From Desulfobacteraceae bacterium (lineage in GTDB: Bacteria; Desulfobacterota; Desulfobacteria; Desulfobacterales; SURF-7): DNA of 44,140 bases. The stretch covers positions 1-44,140 of the forward strand of contig QZKS01000046.1 in NCBI GenBank assembly GCA_003599865.1, given 5' to 3'. The notes beneath the pieces were generated by a model that searched no databases, had not been told where the DNA came from, and saw nothing but the letters and a program-made list of their open reading frames with translations. Positions 26,867-39,876 of this stretch are shown one piece after another (the first letter of the stretch is position 1; the number at the start of each line of letters is the position of its first letter). The translations under genes were made by a program, and so were the position numbers.

Positions 26867-27034
26867 ATGAACAGCCATTTCAAGAATGCCCCGATGTCAA
26901 CCGGCGGAATCGATTTTCAGAAGCGTATTCCAAGGACCGGATAAGCGATTACAACAATGACCTGCCCGTAAATAGACGGGAAGTCCGTATGCTGTTCACG
27001 ATGTATGGCATGTCCTATGAAGGAGGCACAAATC

Positions 27035-30000
27035 TTGACGTCAATTTTTCGAACCATACGCCATTGGAAGGCCTATATCAGTCGAAGCGGCCTGAAAAAA
27101 GACTACCAAGGCGAAGAGCCGCCGCTGCGGTCGGAACTGTTCAGCAGTGAGCAGATGGCGCGGCACGGCAAGGTTCTGGCGCACTCACACCAGCTGAGTT
27201 CACAACATGCCCCGGATAGACTTTTGAAGCGTCTTTCCGAGAATGAAAGCGTCCTGATCGAAGTCCGCAATCTACTGACGGAGGCGGTTAAGGCCAACTG
27301 CCGGATTGCACCGGCCGGGGAATGGCTGCTCGACAACTATTATCTGATTGAGGAACAGATTCGTATGGCCCGGCGGCATTTACCGAAGGGCTACAGCCGC
27401 GAACTGCCTCGCTTGAAGAACGGTCCATCGGTCTGGGTTCCCCGTGTGTATGATATCGCGCTGGAGATCGTTTCGCATGGCGATGGCCGTGTGGATCCGG
27501 AAAACCTCCAAGGTTTCGTTGCCGCCTACCAGTCGGTGACGTTCCTGAAACTCGGCGAATTATGGGCTATCCCCATCATGCTGCGCCTCGCCCTGATCGA
27601 GAATCTTCGACGGGTTGCCGCCCGGATCGCTGCCGACAGGATGGATCGAAATCTCGCCAACTATTGGGCCGACCTGATGACGGAAACCGCCGAGAAGGAC
27701 CCGGGGAATCTGATTCTGACCGTGGCCGACATGGCGCGGTCGGATCCCCCGATGTCCAGTGCTTTTGTTGCGGAGTTTTCACGCCGGTTGCAGGGTCCCG
27801 GTTCCGCTCCGGCCCTGCCGCTAACCTGGATTGAACAGCGGCTGTCCGATTCCGGTATGTCCATTGAGCAACAGGTGCGTTCCGAGAGCCAGCAACAGGC
27901 CGCAGATCAGGTTTCCATGAGCAACAGCATCGGCAGCCTCCGGTTCCTGGGTGCAATGGATTGGCGTGAGTTCGTTGAGACGATGAGCATTATCGAGCTG
28001 ACCCTGCTGGAAGATCCCGTAAATATCTATGCCAAGATGGATTTTGCCACCCGTGACCGCTACCGCCGTGTTGTGGAAAAAATTGCGAAAAGCTGTCCTC
28101 TGTCCGAAAAAGAAGTGGCGGACATGGCGCTCCGGCTGGCGAATGAAGCCGCTGCCCAAAAAGGCAACGACAGTCGTGAGGCGCACATCGGTTTCTACCT
28201 GATCGACAAGGGATCGGTCCGGCTCCATCATTCGGCGAAGGTGAGATTGTCGTTCGCAGGCGCTCTGTGCAAGGCAGGCCGTCAATTTCCCATGCTGTTT
28301 TATTGCGGCGCCATCCTGTTGATAACGGTCATGATCGCCGGATATTTTACGGCAATGTCCTATGCCGGTGGGATGCATGGCTGGATGCTCGGGCTGTTTG
28401 GGTTTCTCACGCTGTTATGCGCCGGCCAACCGGCGGTAGCCATGGCAAACCGGCTGGCAACATTGCTGACGTCACCACGCCTGTTACCGTGTATGGATTT
28501 TTCCAAGGGAATCCCACGGGAATCACGCACGTTGGCAGTGATCCCGACGATACTCGCAAACCCCCGGAGTGTCGAGGATCTGGCCGAGGCCCTGGAGGTC
28601 AGCTTCCTGGCCAATCGGGACGAGTACCTCCACTTTGGTCTGCTGACGGATTTCCAGGACGCAACCGGGGAAACGCTTCCGGAGGACGAATCTTTGTTGC
28701 GGCTGGTTCAAAAAAGAATCCGGGAGCTGAACGAAAAACACAATGACCGGAAAACCGGCAGGTTTTTCCTTTTTCATCGTCCCCGCCGCTGGAATCCTCA
28801 GGAAAAAATCTGGATGGGTTACGAGCGGAAGCGGGGAAAGCTGGCGGATTTGAATGCTCTTCTGCGCGGCGATGCAGGGGATCGTTTCTCTCTCATTGAC
28901 GGGGACACCGCCGTATTGCCGGAGGTGAAGTATGTGATCACCCTGGATACGGATACCCAGCTTCCCCGGGACTCGGCATGGCAGATGGTTGGAGCCATGG
29001 CCCATCCGCTGAATCAGGCGCACTACAACGAAGGCCGGCAGCGGATTGATGAGGGTTACGGTATCCTTCAACCCCGGGTGGCTGTCAGTCTGCCGGAAAT
29101 AAATCAGTCTCGATATGCGCGGTTATGCGGGAGTGAGCCGGGCATCGACCCCTATACCCGTGCGGTCTCGGATGTATATCAGGACCTGTTCGGTGAGGGC
29201 TCATACATCGGCAAGGGGATTTATGATGTCGATGCGTTTGAGCAGGCACTGAAGGATCGTCTTCCCGAAAACCTGATTCTCAGTCATGACCTTGTGGAGG
29301 GTTGCTATGCACGGTCCGGGCTGCTCAGCAATGTGCTGTTGTACGAGGAATATCCATCCCGCTATAGTATAGACATGAGCCGTCGGCACCGCTGGATTCG
29401 CGGGGATTGGCAAATTGCCGGCTGGCTGCTGTCCAGCGTTCCCGGTCTCGATGGCCGCCGCAGGAAAAATCCGATCTCCGTTTTGTCCCGATGGAAAATT
29501 TTCGATAATCTTCGCCGCAGTCTCGTGCCGGCAGCCTTGACCGTTTTGTTGCTCTTCGGCTGGACGGTCCTTTCCCCTGCCTGGTTATGGACCCTCATGG
29601 TGATCGGAATCATCCTGGTCCCGACCGGATTGGCGTTGCTTATGGATTTGTTCCGGAAACCGGACGATATGCTTCTGGGGCAGCATCTTGCGGAGACGCT
29701 GCGCACGACCGGCCTGCATTGCACCCAGGCCGTCTTTTCCCTTACGTGTCTCCCCTATGAGGCCTACTCCGATCTGGATGCGACTGTATCCTCAGTCTTA
29801 CGGATGTGGATTACCCGCAAACGGCTTCTGGAGTGGAATCCGCAAAAAGACGCGGATCACCAGAACCGTACGGACCTCGCCGCATCCTTTCGGACAATGT
29901 GGTTTGCGCCTTTTCTGGCCGTTATCGTGGGGAGTTATCTGAGCATTACCATGGCGATGGACGTGCTGATCGCGGCCGGTCCCATCCTGGTCCTCTGGTT

Positions 30001-33000
30001 CGCTTCCCCCGCCATCACCTGGTGGATCAGCCTGCCGATCCCTCGCCGTTGTGAAAAACTGACAAGCGATCAGACCCTTTTCTTACGAAAATTGTCCCGA
30101 AAAACCTGGGCGTTCTTCGAAACGTTCATCGGTCCGGAGGATCATTGGCTGCCGCCGGATAACCATCAGAAACATCCCGTTCCCGTAACCGCGCACCGCA
30201 CCTCGCCCACCAATATAGGGCTTGCCCTGCTGGCGAATTTGTCCGCGTACGACTTCGGGTATATCCCGGCCGGACAGCTTATTGAACGCACCGCGAAGAC
30301 GTTCCACACCATGGAAGCCCTGGAACGAAACCGGGGCCACTTCTACAACTGGTATGACACCCAATCCCTCAAGCCGCTGCAACCCCTCTACATTTCGTCG
30401 GTGGACAGCGGAAACCTGACGGGACATCTGCTGACGCTACAGCCGGGTCTGCTCGAAATCGTCGATCACAAAATCCTGGGAAAACGTGTTTTCGAGGGGC
30501 TTAGCGATACCCTTGAGATTGTCGCGAATGCCGCGGCCGCCGTTCCGGAAAAAACCGCTCGGGATCGACTTGCCCGGCTTCAGCAGGATATCGCATCCGC
30601 GGTCCGTTCCAATCCCGGTACAATCAAGGCTGCGCTATCCTGGCTTGAGCGGTTGGCCGTTTCCGCCGCTGAGCTGGTCGCCGGGATAGAAGCTTTTGAA
30701 GCCGATCCCGAAAGCCCCTTTAGATGGTGGGCCAATGCGTTTGCCGGTCAATGCCGGGACGCCGTCGATGAACTGATTTTTCTCGCTCCATGGACGAAAT
30801 TCATTTCTTCCCGGGACAGCCTTGGCGGCTCTTTCGATCTCGACCGGATCCCGACACTGCGTGAATTGTCGGAACAGAAAGTGAAATTTTCGCCGTCCCT
30901 TTTGCAGCAACCGGATTCTTCCATGTCTCCTGAGAAAAAAGCCCGATTGGATGAGCTCCAAGGTCTCATCACGACGGCTGTCCGGCGCGCCGCGGACAGG
31001 ATCGCGACCATCGAGCATCTCGCATTGCAATGCGGCGCATTCGCGCAAATGGACTATGACTTCCTGTTCAATGATAAGATTCATCTTCTGGCCATCGGTT
31101 ACAATGTAGGTGAACTCAAACAGGATGCAAGTTACTATGATCTTCTGGCTTCCGAGGCGAGGTTTGCCACTTTCGTAGGAATTGCCCAGGGGAAATTACC
31201 GCAGGAGAGCTGGTTCGCCATGGGACGTCTGCTCACGGTTGCCGGTGGAGAACCGATTCTCCTTTCGTGGAGCGGTTCCATGTTCGAATACCTGATGCCG
31301 ATGCTGGTGATGCCGACTTACGAATACACACTGCTCCACCAGACCTGTAAAGCGGCCGTGGCCCGGCAAATCGATTATGGGAAAAAGCGCGCCCTGCCGT
31401 GGGGTGTATCGGAATGTGGTTACAATGCCATCGATGTGCATCTCAATTACCAATACCGGGCCTTCGGCGTTCCCGGTCTGGGACTGAAACGAGGACTCGC
31501 CGAGGATCTCGTGATTGCGCCCTATGCTTCGGCGCTGGCACTGATGATTGCCCCCGGGGAGGCCTGCCGGAACCTCGAGAGGCTTGCTGCGGAAGGGCTG
31601 GAAACCCGTTACGGCTTCTACGAAGCCATCGACTATACCCCATCACGTCTGCCACGTGGGAAATCGAGTGTCATGATTCAATCTTTCATGGCCCATCACC
31701 AGGGGATGACGATTCTATCCCTGGCCCATCTGCTACTGGAACAACCGATGCAAAAACGCTTCGAGTCCATCCCCATATTCCAGGCGACCATGCTGTTGCT
31801 CCAGGAGCGAATCCCCAAGGATACGGCCTTCTATGCCCATACCACGGAGATCTCGGAGCACCATGGGGCTTTCAACGTTTCAGATTCACCCATTCGTGTT
31901 TTCAGCAGTCCCGATACGCCGAACCCGGAAGTGCAGTTGCTCACGAACGGGAGATACCATGTGATGGTCACCAACGCCGGCGGGGGATACAGTCGCTGGA
32001 ATAACCTGGCCATCACACGCTGGCGGGAAGACGGGACCTGTGACAACTGGGGCTCCTTCTGCTATATCAGCGATGTGACGAGCGGAGAATTCTGGTCCGC
32101 TGCCTATCAACCGACCCTCAAACGATGGAAGCATTCTGAAGCCATCTTCTCGGAAGGCCGGGCGGAGTTTCGCGGGAAAAACCATGACTATGACACCCAC
32201 ACCGAAATTGCCGTTTCTCCCGAGGATGATATCGAGCTGCGCCGAGTCCGCATCACCAACCGTACCCGCACCCGGCGCGCGCTGGATGTTACCAGTTATG
32301 CGGAAGTGGTTCTGGCGCCTCCCGCCTCGGACGCACTCCATCCGGCATTCAGCAATCTGTTCGTACAGACCGAGATCATCCATGGACAACGAGCCATTCT
32401 CTGCACTCGCCGGCCCCGTTCCGAAGGCGATCAACCCCCCTGGATGCTGCACCTGATGGTTGCGCATGGGGCGGAAATCGGAGAAATCTCCTATGAGACC
32501 GATCGCATGCAGTTCATCGGCCGCGGCAACTCCGTCGTTAATCCACAGGCCCTGAGCGGCAGGGCTGATTATTATACGGGAGCGCTCTCAGGCCGGGAAG
32601 GCTCCGTGCTCGATCCGATTGTCGCCATCCGTTATCGGATAACGCTTGCTCCCGAGCAATCGGTAACGATAAACATTGTATCGGGCATCACCGAAACCCG
32701 CGATGCCGCCTTACGCCTTGTGGAAAAATATCAGGATCGACGTCTGGCGGATCGTGTTTTCGATCTGGTTTGGACGCATGGACAGGTACTGCTGCGTCAA
32801 TTGAATTCCTCGGAAGCCGACGCCCAACTGTATGGCCGCCTTGCCGGTTCAATCATATACGCCAATGCTTCGCTTCGCGCCGACACGAGCATCCTTATCA
32901 AGAACTTTCGAGGACAATCCGGTCTCTGGGGATACGCCATATCCGGCGATCTGCCGATTGTATTGCTTCAGATCGAAGATCCGCTCCATATCAATCTGGT

Positions 33001-35779
33001 GCGTCAGCTCATACAAGCACACGCCTACTGGCGTTTGAAGGGAATTTTGGTGGATCTGATCATCTGGAACGATGATCACAGCGGTTACCGGCAGCTTCTT
33101 CACGACCGGATCATGGGACTGATCAGCGCAAGCACGGAAGCCGGCCTGACAAACCAGCCGGGCGGCATTTTCGTAAGACCTGCCGACCAGATATCGGAGG
33201 AAGACCGCATCCTGATACAGACAGTCGCCCGCGTCGTCATCACCGACAGGAGAGGAACCCTGGAAGAGCAGATCAACCGGCGCGGTTTCATGGAACCTGT
33301 CACACCGCTCCTTACCCCGACCCGAACCCATCGCTCCGAACCACCGGTAACAATTGCCCTGCCTCGCTCCGATCTGACGTTTTTCAATGGAATCGGCGGA
33401 TTTACCCCGGATGGCCGCGAGTATGTCATTACCACCGCTCACGGGCAAATGACTCCGGCGCCCTGGGTGAATGTGCTGGCCAACCCGAACTTCGGCACCG
33501 TCATCTCGGAAAGCGGGTCGGCTTATACCTGGAGCGAGAATGCCCATGAGTTTCGTCTCACGCCTTGGGGGAATGATCCCGTCGGTGATACAAGCGGAGA
33601 GGCGTTTTACATCCGTGATGAAGAGCGCGGACATTTCTGGTCTCCGACACCGCTCCCCCGACGCGGCACCACGCCTTACGTCACCCGCCACGGATTCGGC
33701 TACAGCGTTTTCGAACACACCGAACGCGGTATCCACTCGGAGTTGTGGGTTTACACGGCGCTGGATGCACCGGTCAAATTCATGGCGCTTAAAGTACGAA
33801 ACGAGTCGGGACGATTACGCCGGCTCTCCGCCACCGGATACGTGGAATGGGTGCTTGGCGACCTGCGGGAGAAAACGGCCATGCATGTGATCACCGAAAT
33901 CGATCCGACCAGCGGGGCCGTGTTCGCACGAAATCCCTATAACATGGAATTCTGCGGCCGGGTTGCATTCTTCAACGTGGGTGATACAACCCGCACCGTT
34001 ACCGGTAATCGAACCGAATTCCTGGGCCGCAACGGTACGCTCGGAAATCCGGCGGCCATGCTGCGAACCCGCCTTTCCGGAAAGGTAGGAGCCGCAATGG
34101 ATCCCTGTGCTGCGATCCAGACGGCATTTGAGCTATCCGACCAGCAGGAGCATGAAATCATTTTTATGCTCGGCGTCGGGTGTGACGAAAAAGATGCCGT
34201 GAATCTGGTCAACCGCTTCCGGGGACCATCCGCCGCGCATGGCGCGCTGGAAGCGGTATGGCGACACTGGACGCACACCCTTGGGGCCGTGCATGTGGAA
34301 ACACCCGACCGGTCTCTCAACCTGCTGGCCAACGGCTGGCTCCTGTACCAGACCCTGACGTGCCGCCTCTGGGCGAGAAGCGCAACCTACCAGTCCGGAG
34401 GCGCATTCGGATTTCGCGATCAGCTGCAGGACGTGATGGCACTCACTCATGCCATGCCGCATCTCGTGCGCGAGCACCTTCTTCTGTGCGCTGCTCATCA
34501 ATTCGTGGATGGCGATGTTCAGCATTGGTGGCACCCCCCAACGGGCCGGGGAGTGCGCACTCACTGTTCGGACGATTATCTCTGGCTGCCGCTCACCACG
34601 TGCCGCTATGTCCTTGTCACCGGAGACACGGGCGTTCTGGATGAGACCGTCCACTTCCTCCAGGGCCGACCGGTAAACGCGGATGAGGACTCTTATTATG
34701 ATTTGCCCGGACGTTCCGAAGAGACGGCGAATCTTTACGAACATTGCGTCCGCGCCATTCTTTACGGCCTCAAGTTCGGCGAGCACGGTCTGCCGCTCAT
34801 CGGTTCCGGGGACTGGAACGACGGCATGAATACAGTGGGCGAACAAGGCAGGGGCGAAAGTGTCTGGTTGGGTTTCTTCCTTTATGAAGTGCTCATGCAA
34901 TTCATGGAAGTCGCCCGCAGGCGAAACGACCCGGCCTTTGTCGAACGTTGTGGGAAGGAGGCGGACCGACTGCGACAAAATATCGACCGGAACGCCTGGG
35001 ATGGAGCGTGGTACCGACGTGCCTACTTTGATGACGGTTCGCCGTTGGGATCATGGGTTAACCCCGAATGCCGGATTGATTCCATCGCACAGAGTTGGTC
35101 TGTCCTTTCAGGCGCCGGAGATCATGAGCGATCGCGCATGGCCATGGAAGCGCTGGATGAGCACCTCGTTCGACGCGAGCATGGGCTGATCCAACTGCTG
35201 GATCCTCCCTTCGACAAATCGGCACTGAATCCCGGCTATATCAAAGGCTACCTCCCGGGAGTCCGGGAAAACGGTGGTCAATACACGCACGCCGCCATCT
35301 GGGCGGCAATGGCCTTTGCCCGTCTGGGAGACAGCCGGCGCGCATGGGAGCTTTTTACCATGATCAACCCGGTGAACCACGCAAGATCCATCGAGGAAGC
35401 CGAAACCTACAAAGTGGAACCCTACGTCATGGCCGCCGACGTATATGCGGTATCACCCCATATTGGCCGAGGGGGCTGGACATGGTACACAGGCTCGGCC
35501 GCCTGGATGTACCGGCTGATCGTGGAATCACTTCTGGGGCTCAGACTTGAAAAAGATACGCTTCGTTTTGAACCATGCATCCCGGCGGATTGGAAGTCGT
35601 TTAAAGTGCATTACCGGTATCGGGAAACCGTTTACCACATCAACGTCCTGCAATCGCCGGACGTTACAAGCAAAGCCGGCATAAGCGTTGACGGAGTCGC
35701 GCAACACGACCGGACGATTCTTCTTGTGGACGACCGCCGGGAACATATCGTTGAGGTGAGACTACCCCAAAAGACGTGA
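27035..35779 (+). CDS. Cyclic beta-1,2-glucan synthase (NdvB/ChvB-like)
   Basis: A giant inner-membrane enzyme of 2914 aa (ChvB/Cgs about 2830). It builds a UDP-glucose-derived beta-1,2 chain on itself and cyclises it; the product is an osmoregulated periplasmic glucan. Domains in order: an N-terminal region; membrane helices about 415-475; the GT84 transferase with DTDTQLP (about 637) and RRHRWIRGDW (about 780); further helices about 830-865 and 955-1000; a glycoamylase-like domain about 1035-1570; two carbohydrate-binding GT36-associated domains about 1630-1890 and 2120-2390; and a GH94 phosphorylase domain about 2410-2820, with the catalytic Asp in GSGDWNDGMN near 2592. The start: AAGGAGG (27020-27026) lies eight bases before an in-frame TTG at 27035; an ATG 30 bases upstream lacks a site. 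GC-rich relative to its neighbours. No ndvA exporter in view. Confidence 0.93.
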   Translation: MTSIFRTIRHWKAYISRSGLKKDYQGEEPPLRSELFSSEQMARHGKVLAHSHQLSSQHAPDRLLKRLSENESVLIEVRNLLTEAVKANCRIAPAGEWLLDNYYLIEEQIRMARRHLPKGYSRELPRLKNGPSVWVPRVYDIALEIVSHGDGRVDPENLQGFVAAYQSVTFLKLGELWAIPIMLRLALIENLRRVAARIAADRMDRNLANYWADLMTETAEKDPGNLILTVADMARSDPPMSSAFVAEFSRRLQGPGSAPALPLTWIEQRLSDSGMSIEQQVRSESQQQAADQVSMSNSIGSLRFLGAMDWREFVETMSIIELTLLEDPVNIYAKMDFATRDRYRRVVEKIAKSCPLSEKEVADMALRLANEAAAQKGNDSREAHIGFYLIDKGSVRLHHSAKVRLSFAGALCKAGRQFPMLFYCGAILLITVMIAGYFTAMSYAGGMHGWMLGLFGFLTLLCAGQPAVAMANRLATLLTSPRLLPCMDFSKGIPRESRTLAVIPTILANPRSVEDLAEALEVSFLANRDEYLHFGLLTDFQDATGETLPEDESLLRLVQKRIRELNEKHNDRKTGRFFLFHRPRRWNPQEKIWMGYERKRGKLADLNALLRGDAGDRFSLIDGDTAVLPEVKYVITLDTDTQLPRDSAWQMVGAMAHPLNQAHYNEGRQRIDEGYGILQPRVAVSLPEINQSRYARLCGSEPGIDPYTRAVSDVYQDLFGEGSYIGKGIYDVDAFEQALKDRLPENLILSHDLVEGCYARSGLLSNVLLYEEYPSRYSIDMSRRHRWIRGDWQIAGWLLSSVPGLDGRRRKNPISVLSRWKIFDNLRRSLVPAALTVLLLFGWTVLSPAWLWTLMVIGIILVPTGLALLMDLFRKPDDMLLGQHLAETLRTTGLHCTQAVFSLTCLPYEAYSDLDATVSSVLRMWITRKRLLEWNPQKDADHQNRTDLAASFRTMWFAPFLAVIVGSYLSITMAMDVLIAAGPILVLWFASPAITWWISLPIPRRCEKLTSDQTLFLRKLSRKTWAFFETFIGPEDHWLPPDNHQKHPVPVTAHRTSPTNIGLALLANLSAYDFGYIPAGQLIERTAKTFHTMEALERNRGHFYNWYDTQSLKPLQPLYISSVDSGNLTGHLLTLQPGLLEIVDHKILGKRVFEGLSDTLEIVANAAAAVPEKTARDRLARLQQDIASAVRSNPGTIKAALSWLERLAVSAAELVAGIEAFEADPESPFRWWANAFAGQCRDAVDELIFLAPWTKFISSRDSLGGSFDLDRIPTLRELSEQKVKFSPSLLQQPDSSMSPEKKARLDELQGLITTAVRRAADRIATIEHLALQCGAFAQMDYDFLFNDKIHLLAIGYNVGELKQDASYYDLLASEARFATFVGIAQGKLPQESWFAMGRLLTVAGGEPILLSWSGSMFEYLMPMLVMPTYEYTLLHQTCKAAVARQIDYGKKRALPWGVSECGYNAIDVHLNYQYRAFGVPGLGLKRGLAEDLVIAPYASALALMIAPGEACRNLERLAAEGLETRYGFYEAIDYTPSRLPRGKSSVMIQSFMAHHQGMTILSLAHLLLEQPMQKRFESIPIFQATMLLLQERIPKDTAFYAHTTEISEHHGAFNVSDSPIRVFSSPDTPNPEVQLLTNGRYHVMVTNAGGGYSRWNNLAITRWREDGTCDNWGSFCYISDVTSGEFWSAAYQPTLKRWKHSEAIFSEGRAEFRGKNHDYDTHTEIAVSPEDDIELRRVRITNRTRTRRALDVTSYAEVVLAPPASDALHPAFSNLFVQTEIIHGQRAILCTRRPRSEGDQPPWMLHLMVAHGAEIGEISYETDRMQFIGRGNSVVNPQALSGRADYYTGALSGREGSVLDPIVAIRYRITLAPEQSVTINIVSGITETRDAALRLVEKYQDRRLADRVFDLVWTHGQVLLRQLNSSEADAQLYGRLAGSIIYANASLRADTSILIKNFRGQSGLWGYAISGDLPIVLLQIEDPLHINLVRQLIQAHAYWRLKGILVDLIIWNDDHSGYRQLLHDRIMGLISASTEAGLTNQPGGIFVRPADQISEEDRILIQTVARVVITDRRGTLEEQINRRGFMEPVTPLLTPTRTHRSEPPVTIALPRSDLTFFNGIGGFTPDGREYVITTAHGQMTPAPWVNVLANPNFGTVISESGSAYTWSENAHEFRLTPWGNDPVGDTSGEAFYIRDEERGHFWSPTPLPRRGTTPYVTRHGFGYSVFEHTERGIHSELWVYTALDAPVKFMALKVRNESGRLRRLSATGYVEWVLGDLREKTAMHVITEIDPTSGAVFARNPYNMEFCGRVAFFNVGDTTRTVTGNRTEFLGRNGTLGNPAAMLRTRLSGKVGAAMDPCAAIQTAFELSDQQEHEIIFMLGVGCDEKDAVNLVNRFRGPSAAHGALEAVWRHWTHTLGAVHVETPDRSLNLLANGWLLYQTLTCRLWARSATYQSGGAFGFRDQLQDVMALTHAMPHLVREHLLLCAAHQFVDGDVQHWWHPPTGRGVRTHCSDDYLWLPLTTCRYVLVTGDTGVLDETVHFLQGRPVNADEDSYYDLPGRSEETANLYEHCVRAILYGLKFGEHGLPLIGSGDWNDGMNTVGEQGRGESVWLGFFLYEVLMQFMEVARRRNDPAFVERCGKEADRLRQNIDRNAWDGAWYRRAYFDDGSPLGSWVNPECRIDSIAQSWSVLSGAGDHERSRMAMEALDEHLVRREHGLIQLLDPPFDKSALNPGYIKGYLPGVRENGGQYTHAAIWAAMAFARLGDSRRAWELFTMINPVNHARSIEEAETYKVEPYVMAADVYAVSPHIGRGGWTWYTGSAAWMYRLIVESLLGLRLEKDTLRFEPCIPADWKSFKVHYRYRETVYHINVLQSPDVTSKAGISVDGVAQHDRTILLVDDRREHIVEVRLPQKT

Positions 35780-36068: not shown

Positions 36069-36767
36069 CTACCGGACCATGCATTCCCGAACATGTTGTG
36101 ACGCCATCGCCTGAAACCCTTGAAACTCTTCATCGGAAAACCCGCAGTTTCCGCTTTCAAAAAAAGAAGGGTTCAGCAGTTTTGTAAAATGAAACTGCTG
36201 AAGGACATACCGCCGGGCGCCCTGTATCCGTGTCAGGACGGCTTTCAGTACCTCTTCATCAAACAAAGGCTTGACGCAGGTGGTCCGGAACTCATACGGA
36301 ACGTCCGACCCCATGAGAACTTCAATGCTTTTGATGATCCGGTCTGCGACCGGCTTTCGGGAAAAAACAGAAGAATAGGCCATTGGATCGGTCTTGATGT
36401 CCATGGCACAATAGTCAATCAGTCTTTTTTCCATCAGGTCACGGATCACCTCCGGGTGGGTCCCGTTGGTATCCAGCTTGATCTTGAAGCCCAGCTCTTT
36501 CACCTTTTCGCTGAATGAAAAAATGCCCCTGGAAAGAGTCGGCTCACCGCCGGTAATGACAATTCCGTCCAGCAGCCCGATCCGGGTTTTCAGAAAATCC
36601 ATGACCCAGGCTTCATTTAAATAATCGGGAACAGGGCCATCGCCCCTTACCAGTTCGGGATTGTGACAATAGGGACAAACCAGATTGCATCCGGAGAGGA
36701 ACAGCACACAACTGATGTTACCGGGATAATCAATGAGCGAGGTTTTCTGAAAGCCGCCGAAATTCAT
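36069..36767 (-). CDS. nrdG: Anaerobic ribonucleotide reductase activating enzyme (radical SAM, NrdG2 type)
   Basis: A radical-SAM activase that generates the glycyl radical on NrdD using S-adenosylmethionine and a 4Fe-4S cluster. The 232-aa protein has CNLVCPYC with Cys27, Cys31 and Cys34 (CxxxCxxC), an IVITGGEPTLS SAM-binding stretch and the family opening GGFQKTSLIDYPG. The start at 36767 is chosen because the family begins there. A longer frame runs back through the end of nrdD but translates that gene's shadow. The start lies 70 bases after the nrdD stop, so the two form an operon. The class III pair needs strictly anoxic conditions. Confidence 0.92.
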   Translation of the reverse strand: MNFGGFQKTSLIDYPGNISCVLFLSGCNLVCPYCHNPELVRGDGPVPDYLNEAWVMDFLKTRIGLLDGIVITGGEPTLSRGIFSFSEKVKELGFKIKLDTNGTHPEVIRDLMEKRLIDYCAMDIKTDPMAYSSVFSRKPVADRIIKSIEVLMGSDVPYEFRTTCVKPLFDEEVLKAVLTRIQGARRYVLQQFHFTKLLNPSFFESGNCGFSDEEFQGFQAMASQHVRECMVR

Positions 36768-36837
36768 GCCGTCACCAACCACCCGCTGAACCGTCAGACC
36801 GTTGAACGCTGATGGTTCGGCAGGTGGTTTCAACTCC

Positions 36838-38994
36838 TCAAACCGCCTTTTTTTCCGGCATTTCTTCGACAAAGGTTTCCGGCAGACAGGGAGTCTGTTC
36901 GCGGCTGTCCAGATTGTATGTCTTGCGCATGGTAAACTCGGTCTGCTTGCCGTTGTTCCACTGCTTGACCGGCCGCAGATACCCGACGACCCTTGAGTAT
37001 ACTTCCGTTTCATGGCCGCAGACCGTACATTTTTCATGCGCGCCCTTGATATATCCATGGGAGGGACAGACACTGAAGGTCGGTGTCAGCGTAAAATAGG
37101 GAAGCCGGTAATTCCCGGCAATCTTGCGAACCATGGCCTTGGTGGTTTCAATATCCGATATCTGCTCTCCCAGGAAAATGTGCAGCACGGTTCCGCCGGT
37201 GTATTTGGTCTGCAGTTCATCCTGAAGCATCAGGGTTTCAAAAATATCGTCCGTATAATTGACCGGAAGCTGCGTTGAATTGGTATAAAACGGATCTTCG
37301 TTTTTCAGGTATCCTTCCTGATTCATGCAGATGATGTCCGGATAATGCTGCTTGTCCAGCATGGCAAGACGGTAGGAAGTCCCTTCTGCCGGGGTTGCCT
37401 CCAGGTTGTAGATATCGCCGGTTTCATCCTGAATGCCGGCAATCAGGCCTCGCAGGAAATCCATGGTCCGCAGGGAAAACTCCCTACCCTTCCGGCTGCC
37501 GATATCCTCACCAAAAAAATTGAGACACGCTTCATTCATGCCGATGATGCCCACGGTGGAAAAATGATTTTTCCAGTATTTGTCCGACCGTTTTTTGATG
37601 TCTCTCAGGTAGAATTTGGAATAGGGATACAGATTGTTCTCCGTGAACGATTCCAGGATTTTCCGCTTGATGATCAGACTCCGCTTCGCGATCTCCACCA
37701 TGTCCGACAACCGGGCAAAAAATTCCTCTTCGGTTTTAGCCACATATCCGATTCGCGGCAGATTGATGGTGACAACGCCGATGGAACCGGTAAGGGGATT
37801 GGCGCCAAAAAGACCGCCGCCCCGTTTCATGAGTTCGCGGTTGTCCAGACGCAAACGGCAGCACATGGATCTGGCATCTTCCGGCGACATGTCGGAATTG
37901 ACGAAATTGGAAAAATACGGGATGCCGTACTTGGCGGTCATTTTCCAGATCATGTCCAGGTTGGGATTGTCCCAGGAAAAGTCTTTCGTAATATTATAGG
38001 TCGGAATCGGAAAGGTAAAGACCCGCCCCTTGGCATCCCCTTCCATCATGACCTCGGCAAATGCCCGGTTGATCAGATCCATTTCCGGCTGAAATTCCGA
38101 ATAGGTTTCCGCCTGCTCTTTCCCGCCGATGATGACGGGATGATCTTTCAATGTGGAGGGTACTTCCAGATCCATGGTAAGGTTGGTGAACGGGGTCTGG
38201 AACCCGACCCGTGTCGGAATGTTGATATTGAATACAAATTCCTGCATGGCCTGTTTTACACCCTGAAAATCAAGGCCGTCATGCCGGACAAACGGAGCCA
38301 GGAGCGTGTCGAAATTGGATATGGCCTGGGCGCCGGCTGCCTCTCCCTGAAGGGTATAGAAAAAATTGACGACCTGGCCGAGAGCGGAACGCAGATGCCT
38401 GGGCGGAGCGCTCTCCACCTTGCCGGCAACACCTTTGAATCCCTGCCGGAGCAGATCCTGCAAGTCCCAGCCCACACAGTAAACCGAAAGAAGACTCAAA
38501 TCATGGATATGGATATCCCCGTTTTTATGGGCGCGCCTGATCTCCGGCGGATAAATCCGGTTCAGCCAGTATTCGGAAGTGACATCCGAAGAAATATAGT
38601 TGTTCAGCCCCTGAAGGGAATAACTCATATTGCTGTTTTCTTTTATTTTCCAGTCCATCTTCTGGATATAGTTTTCCACCAGATCCACGCTGGCTTTGGT
38701 GGTGATATTCCGGATCTGGTTGTGCTGCTCACGATAGATGATATAGGCCTTTGCGGTCTGATAAAAGGTCGAGTCGAGCAGCACCCGTTCAACAATATCC
38801 TGAATTTCCTCCACCATCGGCATCTCACCCAGACGGATTTCATGCGCCAGGGTGAGCACCCGGAGCGTCAGCTTTTTCGCTTCCCGCTCTCCAAATTCAC
38901 CGGTGGCCAGCCCGGCTTTGGCGATTGCATTCGTGATTTTGGTGGAATCAAACTCCAGCACCCTGCCGTCTCTTTTTTTTATTTTCTCAAACAT
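36838..38994 (-). CDS. nrdD: Anaerobic ribonucleoside-triphosphate reductase, class III
   Basis: Reduces ribonucleoside triphosphates to deoxy forms for DNA synthesis without oxygen. In this 718-aa protein an ATP-cone covers residues 3-92 (allosteric control). The catalytic barrel includes the Cys pair in MCCRLRLDNREL (about 376-377). A C-terminal metal site is visible in CPSHGY and CTVCG. The radical-bearing Gly671 lies in YSRVVGYLRP, followed by a 47-residue tail. Only one Cys plus His replaces the first Cys pair of the phage T4 zinc site, a form common in bacterial NrdDs. The ATG has AAAAGGA upstream. nrdG follows. A promoter overlapped by NrdR-like boxes lies about 150 bases upstream. Confidence 0.95.
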   Translation of the reverse strand: MFEKIKKRDGRVLEFDSTKITNAIAKAGLATGEFGEREAKKLTLRVLTLAHEIRLGEMPMVEEIQDIVERVLLDSTFYQTAKAYIIYREQHNQIRNITTKASVDLVENYIQKMDWKIKENSNMSYSLQGLNNYISSDVTSEYWLNRIYPPEIRRAHKNGDIHIHDLSLLSVYCVGWDLQDLLRQGFKGVAGKVESAPPRHLRSALGQVVNFFYTLQGEAAGAQAISNFDTLLAPFVRHDGLDFQGVKQAMQEFVFNINIPTRVGFQTPFTNLTMDLEVPSTLKDHPVIIGGKEQAETYSEFQPEMDLINRAFAEVMMEGDAKGRVFTFPIPTYNITKDFSWDNPNLDMIWKMTAKYGIPYFSNFVNSDMSPEDARSMCCRLRLDNRELMKRGGGLFGANPLTGSIGVVTINLPRIGYVAKTEEEFFARLSDMVEIAKRSLIIKRKILESFTENNLYPYSKFYLRDIKKRSDKYWKNHFSTVGIIGMNEACLNFFGEDIGSRKGREFSLRTMDFLRGLIAGIQDETGDIYNLEATPAEGTSYRLAMLDKQHYPDIICMNQEGYLKNEDPFYTNSTQLPVNYTDDIFETLMLQDELQTKYTGGTVLHIFLGEQISDIETTKAMVRKIAGNYRLPYFTLTPTFSVCPSHGYIKGAHEKCTVCGHETEVYSRVVGYLRPVKQWNNGKQTEFTMRKTYNLDSREQTPCLPETFVEEMPEKKAV

Positions 38995-39141: not shown

Positions 39142-39171
39142 CTGATAGCACAACATATTGTTATGTGTCAA
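39142..39171 (-). promoter_or_regulatory. Predicted nrdD promoter
   Basis: Reverse strand TTGACA (39171-39166), 18 bases, TATCAG (39147-39142). The leader to the nrdD ATG would be about 140 bases. The spacer contains one NrdR-like box and the other lies just upstream, a layout suited to repression. Confidence 0.45.
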
Positions 39172-39194
39172 TTAGAAAATTCAATATATAGCGC
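39148..39194. promoter_or_regulatory. NrdR-box-like pair over the nrdD promoter
   Basis: Two 16-base sites, GCACAACATATTGTTA (39148-39163) and ATTCAATATATAGCGC (39179-39194), start exactly 31 bases apart. Each matches 12 of 16 positions of the NrdR consensus ACACWATATATWGTGT, and the second has a perfect ten-base core. Paired boxes at about 31-bp spacing are the hallmark of NrdR operators, the repressor of ribonucleotide reductase genes. Confidence 0.6.
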
Positions 39195-39394
39195 TTTTAA
39201 ACCGCTTTTACAAAAAAATCAGTAGGAATATCAAGTCAATATACCGGAAAAATTTCCCATCCCCTTGCTGGTTGGACTTTTGCTCATACCGTCTGATTGT
39301 TTTCGTCTTTTCACCAATAAAAATCATCTTTGAAATAAGCATGTTTCCTACAGCCGGCTGGTGCCGGAAAAAAAATCCAGCCCAGTTGACAAAT

Positions 39395-39441
39395 ATACCA
39401 TATAAAGGGGGCTCTCCACATTACTACACAATATATTGTTG
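39395..39441. promoter_or_regulatory. Second NrdR-box-like pair, upstream of the receiver gene
   Basis: ATACCATATAAAGGGG (39395-39410, 11/16) and ACACAATATATTGTTG (39426-39441, 14/16) again start 31 bases apart. The stronger box overlaps TTGACA (39439-39444), which with TATCTG (39462-39467) forms a possible forward promoter for the receiver gene at 39526. It could also act at a distance on nrdD. Confidence 0.55.
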
Positions 39442-39525
39442 ACAAAGCCGGCCGGATGATTTATCTGTAGCTACACTGAACAGCCGGATTGCCATCCAAA
39501 ACCACTTTTTTGAGGGATTACTGTC

Positions 39526-39876
39526 ATGTACAATATTCTGGTCATTGACGACGAACAAGCGATTGGCATGCTGTTGACCAAAGTCCTGTCAAAATATGGC
39601 TACCGGGTCGAAACGGCTCTGGACGGCCTGGAGGGAATCAGAAAATTTGACGAGTCCGATTTTGATATGGTGATCACCGATATCCGAATGCCCGGCCTGG
39701 ACGGAAACGGCGTCATCAAGCATATCCGGGAATCCAAAAAACGGCTCACACCGGTTGTCGGTCTTTCCGGAACCCCGTGGCTGATTGACAAAAAAAGCTT
39801 TGATGCGGTTCTGTCAAAGCCGTCCTCCATCAAAACCATCATTGATACGGTCTCCAGCAATATGAGGCATCATTAA
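39526..39876 (+). CDS. Single-domain response regulator (CheY-like)
   Basis: A 116-aa receiver-only protein: acidic pair in LVIDDEQ, phospho-acceptor in DMVITDIRMPGLDG (Asp about 52), Ser in GLSGTPW and Lys in VLSKPSS. No output domain. GAGGG lies about 11 bases before the ATG. It is divergent from nrdDG across a 0.5-kb control region that carries two NrdR-like box pairs. No kinase is adjacent. Link to nucleotide metabolism is only suggested by the shared control region. Confidence 0.9.
   Translation: MYNILVIDDEQAIGMLLTKVLSKYGYRVETALDGLEGIRKFDESDFDMVITDIRMPGLDGNGVIKHIRESKKRLTPVVGLSGTPWLIDKKSFDAVLSKPSSIKTIIDTVSSNMRHH

Follow-up and report, generated by a model that had tools for sequence, protein, structure and literature searches.

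A probable NrdR-type double operator at the predicted promoter of a stand-alone receiver gene in a Desulfobacteraceae genome

In the available excerpts of one account (PMC9110341), NrdR is presented as a repressor specific to RNR which frequently controls its own gene as well; it does not bind DNA with ATP alone and, with dATP and ATP, forms a tetramer that kinks both boxes of the operator and represses. The same excerpts place the boxes approximately three helical turns apart, describe higher oligomers of NrdR, and tie its CxxC pairs, an RRRR stretch and D15/R17 to DNA contact. Other sources, likewise available in part, state that NrdR requires 14–17 or 24–27 bp between boxes (PMC12051234), that the E. 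coli NrdR operators have 15 bp there (PMC12176259), and that candidate NrdR sites average 3.2 per genome (PMC5343134). The one non-reductase gene that the excerpts name as having an NrdR box and as having been tested for expression is topA from Pseudomonas aeruginosa (PMC4409342), and deletion of nrdR in E. coli is cited as lowering motility and chemotaxis gene expression through a mechanism given as unknown (PMC4898720, in part, citing Dreux 2015). The partially available literature on NrdR in connection with CheY, Desulfobacter or a receiver domain yielded no report of such a link; RegPrecise lay outside this search, and a prediction there is possible.

The DNA considered here, hereafter the window, is a stretch of 44,140 nucleotides from a Desulfobacteraceae bacterium (contig QZKS01000046.1). 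Within it, nrdD and an nrdG-type gene on the reverse strand are separated from a gene for a stand-alone receiver-domain protein on the forward strand by an AT-rich intergenic region of 531 bp, and this region holds two box pairs, one on the nrdD promoter and one before the receiver gene. A convergent pseudouridine synthase gene comes after the receiver gene, and no kinase gene adjoins the latter in the window. The features are as follows.

36069 to 36767, reverse strand, start codon inferred: nrdG-type radical SAM activase, downstream of nrdD (Pfam Radical_SAM, 61 bits on 36069–36800)
36838 to 38994, reverse strand: nrdD, anaerobic ribonucleotide reductase with ATP cone (Pfam NRDD 673 bits, ATP-cone 72 bits)
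39148 to 39163, reverse strand: strong NrdR-type box of the nrdD operator, within the −35/−10 spacer (16.1 bits; 15/16 columns invariant in 3 genomes)
39166 to 39171, reverse strand: TTGACA, −35 hexamer of the nrdD promoter, flanked by the two nrdD boxes (read from the sequence)
39179 to 39194, reverse strand: second NrdR-type box of the nrdD operator, spaced 31 bp from its strong partner (13.2 bits; 13/16 columns invariant in 4 genomes)
39395 to 39410, forward strand: weak NrdR-type box of the receiver operator (box 1), ATACCATATAAAGGGG (11/16 to consensus; 7.7 bits)
39426 to 39441, forward strand: strong NrdR-type box of the receiver operator (box 2), ACACAATATATTGTTG (14/16 to consensus; 20.2 bits)
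39439 to 39444, forward strand: −35 hexamer TTGACA of the predicted receiver promoter, overlapping box 2 (19/20 columns of 39427–39446 invariant in 4 genomes)
39462 to 39467, forward strand: probable −10 hexamer TATCTG, 17 bp after TTGACA (position conserved in aligned receiver promoters)
39526 to 39876, forward strand, ATG at 39526: stand-alone receiver-domain protein, 116 aa (Pfam Response_reg, 67.6 bits)

Apart from these, the window contains an 8.8-kb open reading frame at 27005–35779, the 2924-aa product of which resembles a protein of the cyclic beta-glucan synthase type.

The receiver protein matches PF00072 above the cut-off (67.6 versus 30.2 bits). Phosphorylation of receiver domains involves an acidic pair, a phospho-acceptor Asp and a conserved Lys, and the protein has the acidic residues D8-D9-E10 together with D52, S81 and K98; because D52, the acidic residues and K98 are retained, it is likely to be phosphorylated. 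It shares 88–90% identity with its counterparts in three genus-mates, and an SGTPWL motif marks the subfamily in six aligned rows. The relatives found for the window's receiver locus itself were the three genus-mates and one distant Bacteroidales match, and the solved structures matched to the protein were generic receivers and uninformative.

Boxes were scored against the NrdR consensus, a 16-bp palindrome like ACACWATATNTWGTGT, and with a spacer-free matrix of 16 positions. The matrix was trained on 27 operators that precede nrdD and class I/II reductase genes, all from genomes that do not belong to the genus of the window. These training operators were picked by consensus score at a spacing of 31 bp, which guarantees a pair at each of them; no such guarantee attaches to the lack of a second pair at the training loci or to the counts for receiver, aprB and pilM genes given below. 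The initial annotation had reported two boxes starting 31 bp apart and matching the consensus at 14/16 and 11/16, 85–130 bp ahead of a CheY-like gene, with the stronger box overlapping a TTGACA. Re-scoring returned the boxes as described, at 85–131 bp before the ATG at 39526 and with the hexamer at 39439–39444; their 15-bp spacer falls within the published 14–17 bp. The annotation had recognized a single pair in the intergenic region, and that pair is real, but it had overlooked the 31-bp pair belonging to nrdD itself (39148–39194). The matrix scan that it had suggested places the receiver pair second in the window at 27.9 bits, after the nrdD pair at 29.3 bits, when any spacing of 20–60 bp is allowed; the third-best pair at spacing 31 reaches 9.0 bits, and box 2 of the receiver operator is the top-scoring single box of the whole window.

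To judge how common such scores are, the rest of the genome was scanned over 1.10 Mb, a figure that excludes the window and two stretches chosen for an already known pair. Four pairs of at least 24 bits were found there over 41 spacings (20–60), two at 30, one at 31 and one at 52, and as such scores of this height are rare; with only one of the four at 31, the spectrum alone does not prove a peak at that spacing. At a threshold of 20 bits the same DNA held four pairs at spacing 31, two at 30 and at most one at any other. A fuller spectrum of the genome (at least 24 bits: five at 31, two at 30, one at 52) is biased by the choice of stretches, two having been taken for known pairs and other contigs for earlier matches.

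The TTGACA of the receiver operator points toward the receiver gene, and the operator overlaps the predicted promoter. A sigma-70 consensus scan of the window returned 0 promoters, TATCTG at 39462–39467 lying under its threshold; across 38 aligned receiver promoters, the −10 position 17 bp on has its T in 32/38, its A in 33/38 and the sixth-base T in 20/38. Another TTGACA (39386–39391), beside the weak box, was set aside as it is not conserved in G001–G003. The 27 training nrd operators, which come from other genera, mostly have their TTGACA between the boxes, with box 2 occupying the −35/−10 spacer. The predicted receiver promoter is no copy of the nrdD promoter, its TTGACA being placed differently relative to the boxes, and occupancy by NrdR would hide the −35 of the receiver promoter, but the spacer of the nrdD promoter.

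The presence of a regulator for these sites, another of the checks that the initial annotation had named, was borne out by one full-length nrdR gene in the genome (E 7.2e-62, 209 bits), the translation of which carries two CxxC motifs, an RRRR stretch and D15/R17. No pair of at least 18 bits was found in the 700 bp before nrdR at 8/8 loci, which lends nothing to autoregulation. A class I/II reductase gene of the same genome (G000:C16) has a pair of 24.0 bits.

Within the genus the receiver pair, boxes and spacing alike, is conserved in 4/4 genomes, and the comparison with relatives that had been proposed came out in its favor. The weak box, at 11/16 in the window, stands at its place in G001 and G003 with 13/16 matches to the consensus. 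Across the four genomes the invariant columns number 11/16 in box 1, 14/16 in box 2, 2/15 in the spacer and 71/200 between the pairs; taken together, the receiver boxes are invariant in 25/32 columns versus 73/215 for the spacer and the DNA between the pairs combined (Fisher p 3e-6), and box 1 alone also stands out from that DNA (Fisher p 0.007). A second model which includes the spacer (R1, built from 25 of the 27 training operators) scores the receiver pair in three relatives at 21.5, 20.6 and 17.1 bits and detects box 2 alone in the window, at 10.9 bits. Receiver operators and nrd operators do not have similar spacers, with the result that R1 gives receiver pairs too low a score, and for that reason our counts were taken from the spacer-free matrix. 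Among receiver homologues from other genera of the window's family, none has a full pair. One homologue in G006 carries, 99 bp upstream, a strong box fused to TTGACA, and the partner of that box at 32 bp is no more than degenerate; a homologue in G009 has no NrdR-type pair upstream, nor does a second homologue in G006 (G006:C94) or one in G005 (G005:C6).

Beyond the family, a profile of six receivers was searched in 242 genomes, a draw from the order. The matches listed included 90 homologue loci, of which 88 were usable (L317 and L361 were dropped, their upstream DNA being short); G006:C94 and G005:C6, also above 92 bits, were left out of the 88. Among these matches listed, 38/88 loci have a pair of at least 20 bits, 26 at 31 bp and 12 at 32 bp, and 50/88 have no such pair. 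At L018–L020 the best-scoring pair is that of nrdD, and the receiver pairs there were scored separately. Outside the genus the pair occurs at 34/84 receiver loci among the matches listed, 101–162 bp before the start and most often at 118–129, and these loci fall in at least 11 other families of the order (one of the boxed loci, L306, has an in-frame stop). Generic stand-alone receivers used as controls had a pair in 0/20 cases, these 20 having been hand-picked from the lower part of the same match list, at lower profile scores, and not drawn at random. Box 2 is fused to TTGAC (a degenerate box core followed by GTTGAC) in 38 receiver loci, including the window and the three genus-mates. No nrdD, nrdG or nrdJ was found beside the homologues at 86 outside-genus loci among the matches listed, in the 0.8–3.3 kb around each, and the neighbour genes vary among 15 receiver-homologue loci inspected. 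On a receiver tree built on few columns, loci with the operator cluster, requiring at least 16 label changes as compared to 30.4 in shuffles, with 0/500 shuffles as low; at least 16 changes would imply that gain or loss of the receiver operator has been frequent.

Taken as a whole, these observations make it probable, in our judgement, that the receiver gene has at 39395–39441 a double operator of the NrdR type, at which NrdR with ATP and dATP would repress, so that the receiver would be made at low dATP. NrdR loaded with both nucleotides would bind the two boxes as a tetramer, and the bound protein would bend the DNA and exclude RNA polymerase from the receiver promoter. A fall in dATP would lift repression of the receiver along with that of nrdDG and the class I/II reductase gene, and the receiver may then act as a phosphorylatable single-domain response regulator, in which case nucleotide status would set the dose of a signalling protein. 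The initial annotation had raised the placement of the receiver in the NrdR regulon as one of two options, and this one is supported at the level of sequence because nrdR is present, the pair is conserved in the genus, and the operator stands before homologues without an adjacent nrd gene.

An alternative that we regard as unlikely, though it fares best among those considered, is that the receiver, aprB and pilM answer to some regulator other than NrdR whose paired site looks like that of NrdR, the nrd operators having no more than the motif in common with it. Pairs at 30–32 bp do occur before aprB (15/27 loci) and pilM (13/27), and these could belong to another factor that shares the site. 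However, the matrix, trained on nrd operators alone, scores receiver pairs as high as those of nrdD (maxima of 38.2 and 38.7 bits, respectively); the same-face spacing of the boxes is what NrdR itself requires in the excerpted accounts (PMC12051234, PMC9110341); and the window's genome (G000) yields a single NrdR match, with no second.

The pairs before other genes deserve description in their own right. Genes for the receiver, a PilZ-like protein and a 50-aa protein, as well as pilM and aprB, each have NrdR-type pairs at 30–32 bp in several genomes. Among the 15 aprB loci of the order with a pair, 14 have it 346–436 bp before the gene (loci L235–L264; L202/L237 in the window's own genome); aprB, a name assigned from the sequence, presumably encodes the beta subunit of adenylylsulfate reductase, of sulfate respiration. 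Similarly, 11 of the 13 pilM pairs lie 407–436 bp before the gene (L269–L295; L134:14430 in the own genome), which, again by a name assigned from the sequence, we take to be a type IV pilus gene. In five genomes of the family (G000, G001, G002, G006 and G007; L164:443, L206, L123, L199 and L114), the PilZ-like small protein has a canonical pair whose boxes flank a TTGACA; no pair stands at 28 other PilZ-like homologue loci, of which one is in that family too. Three homologues tested match PilZ with scores under the cut-off, and the protein of G000 has no Pfam match. The conserved protein of approximately 50 aa (MITADELRVLNHIIEDMEDHP...) comes directly after an NrdR-type pair in 4/4 genomes having it, of 30 searched (L143:2609, L192:1574, L195:1540 and L120:1500). 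Single instances include a pair before a topoisomerase-like gene in G005 (L119:1501), presumably for a type II topoisomerase B subunit to judge from the sequence, which calls to mind the control of topA in Pseudomonas, and a pair at 31 bp, scoring 25.4 bits, ahead of a DUF11/DUF3344 protein (L175:7543, G000:C11). The aprB, pilM, PilZ-like and 50-aa pairs may be treated as leads to a wider NrdR regulon in the order. That NrdR is a broader regulator here, tying ATP/dATP status to the receiver, the PilZ-like and 50-aa proteins, pilM and aprB, is a tentative proposal to which we give somewhat less than even weight.

We consider it quite improbable that the pair before the receiver gene is instead a second operator of nrdDG, with NrdR at both pairs looping the DNA and tightening nrdD repression, although NrdR does form higher oligomers in the excerpted account (PMC9110341) and, in the 3 genomes of the genus where the region is complete, both pairs fall within a single intergenic region. 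The nrdD pair is itself whole in three genomes of the genus, the contig of the fourth ending inside it, and the three genus nrdD loci carry two pairs of at least 20 bits each. Outside the genus, exactly one pair of at least 20 bits is found within 900 bp in 32/32 usable nrdD loci (34 examined, L083 and L089 unusable; L016, its 5' end missing, was left out), that of L102 being marginal at 20.4 bits. This receiver is absent from those loci, where the best match to the receiver profile is 57 bits versus 217–222 in the genus. A single pair at nrdD loci that have no receiver argues that the distal pair is not a distant nrdD operator, the other option raised in the initial annotation, which gives way here since nrdD has a pair of its own. 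Furthermore, the same architecture stands before receiver homologues with no nrd gene within 0.8–3.3 kb, the TTGACA of the distal pair is directed toward the receiver, and the distance between the two pairs changes from 247 bp in the window to 217 bp in G001 and G003.

Last, a chance resemblance of AT-rich palindromes, for which one might cite the AT-rich intergenic DNA and a weak box of only 11/16, is scarcely credible and is ruled out as the origin of the receiver pair by conservation, with 0/1000 dinucleotide shuffles of the 531-bp region reaching 27.9 or 29.3 bits and with the pair in 4/4 genus genomes and 34/84 outside loci among the matches listed versus 0/20 of the hand-picked controls.

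In this sulfate-reducing bacterium and in many of its relatives, an operator of a type that normally represses reductase genes, standing on the receiver promoter, suggests from its sequence that nucleotide supply may control a signalling protein too. If a canonical paired operator does govern a signalling gene in at least 12 families, the receiver would become a reporter of nucleotide status, and the supply of DNA precursors would be linked directly to signalling or motility, a link for which the E. coli data, as cited in the available excerpt, offer only an unexplained effect.

In comparison to known systems, the proposed receiver operator resembles the NrdR operators of E. coli nrdHIEF and nrdDG and of S. 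coelicolor nrdRJ in its two 16-bp boxes, its overlap with a promoter and the presence of nrdR in the genome, and its 15-bp spacer is that of the E. coli operators as excerpted (PMC12176259). Unlike in those nrd operators, the gene controlled would be a stand-alone receiver and no reductase, and unlike most nrd operators of the order, in which TTGACA lies between the boxes, the receiver TTGACA overlaps the downstream end of box 2. The protein is akin to single-domain response regulators of the CheY and Spo0F type in being a receiver domain with the phosphorylation residues, and differs from them in belonging to the SGTPWL-motif subfamily and in having no adjoining kinase gene in the window. As in E. 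coli, where NrdR is linked to motility and chemotaxis genes in the excerpted source (PMC4898720), there would be a connection to signalling, which here would take the form of a paired operator on a receiver gene. The closest parallel for a non-reductase gene with an NrdR box is topA of Pseudomonas aeruginosa, and according to the portion available of that report (PMC4409342) topA has a single box and is activated, whereas the receiver has a canonical pair on its predicted −35, an arrangement that suggests repression.
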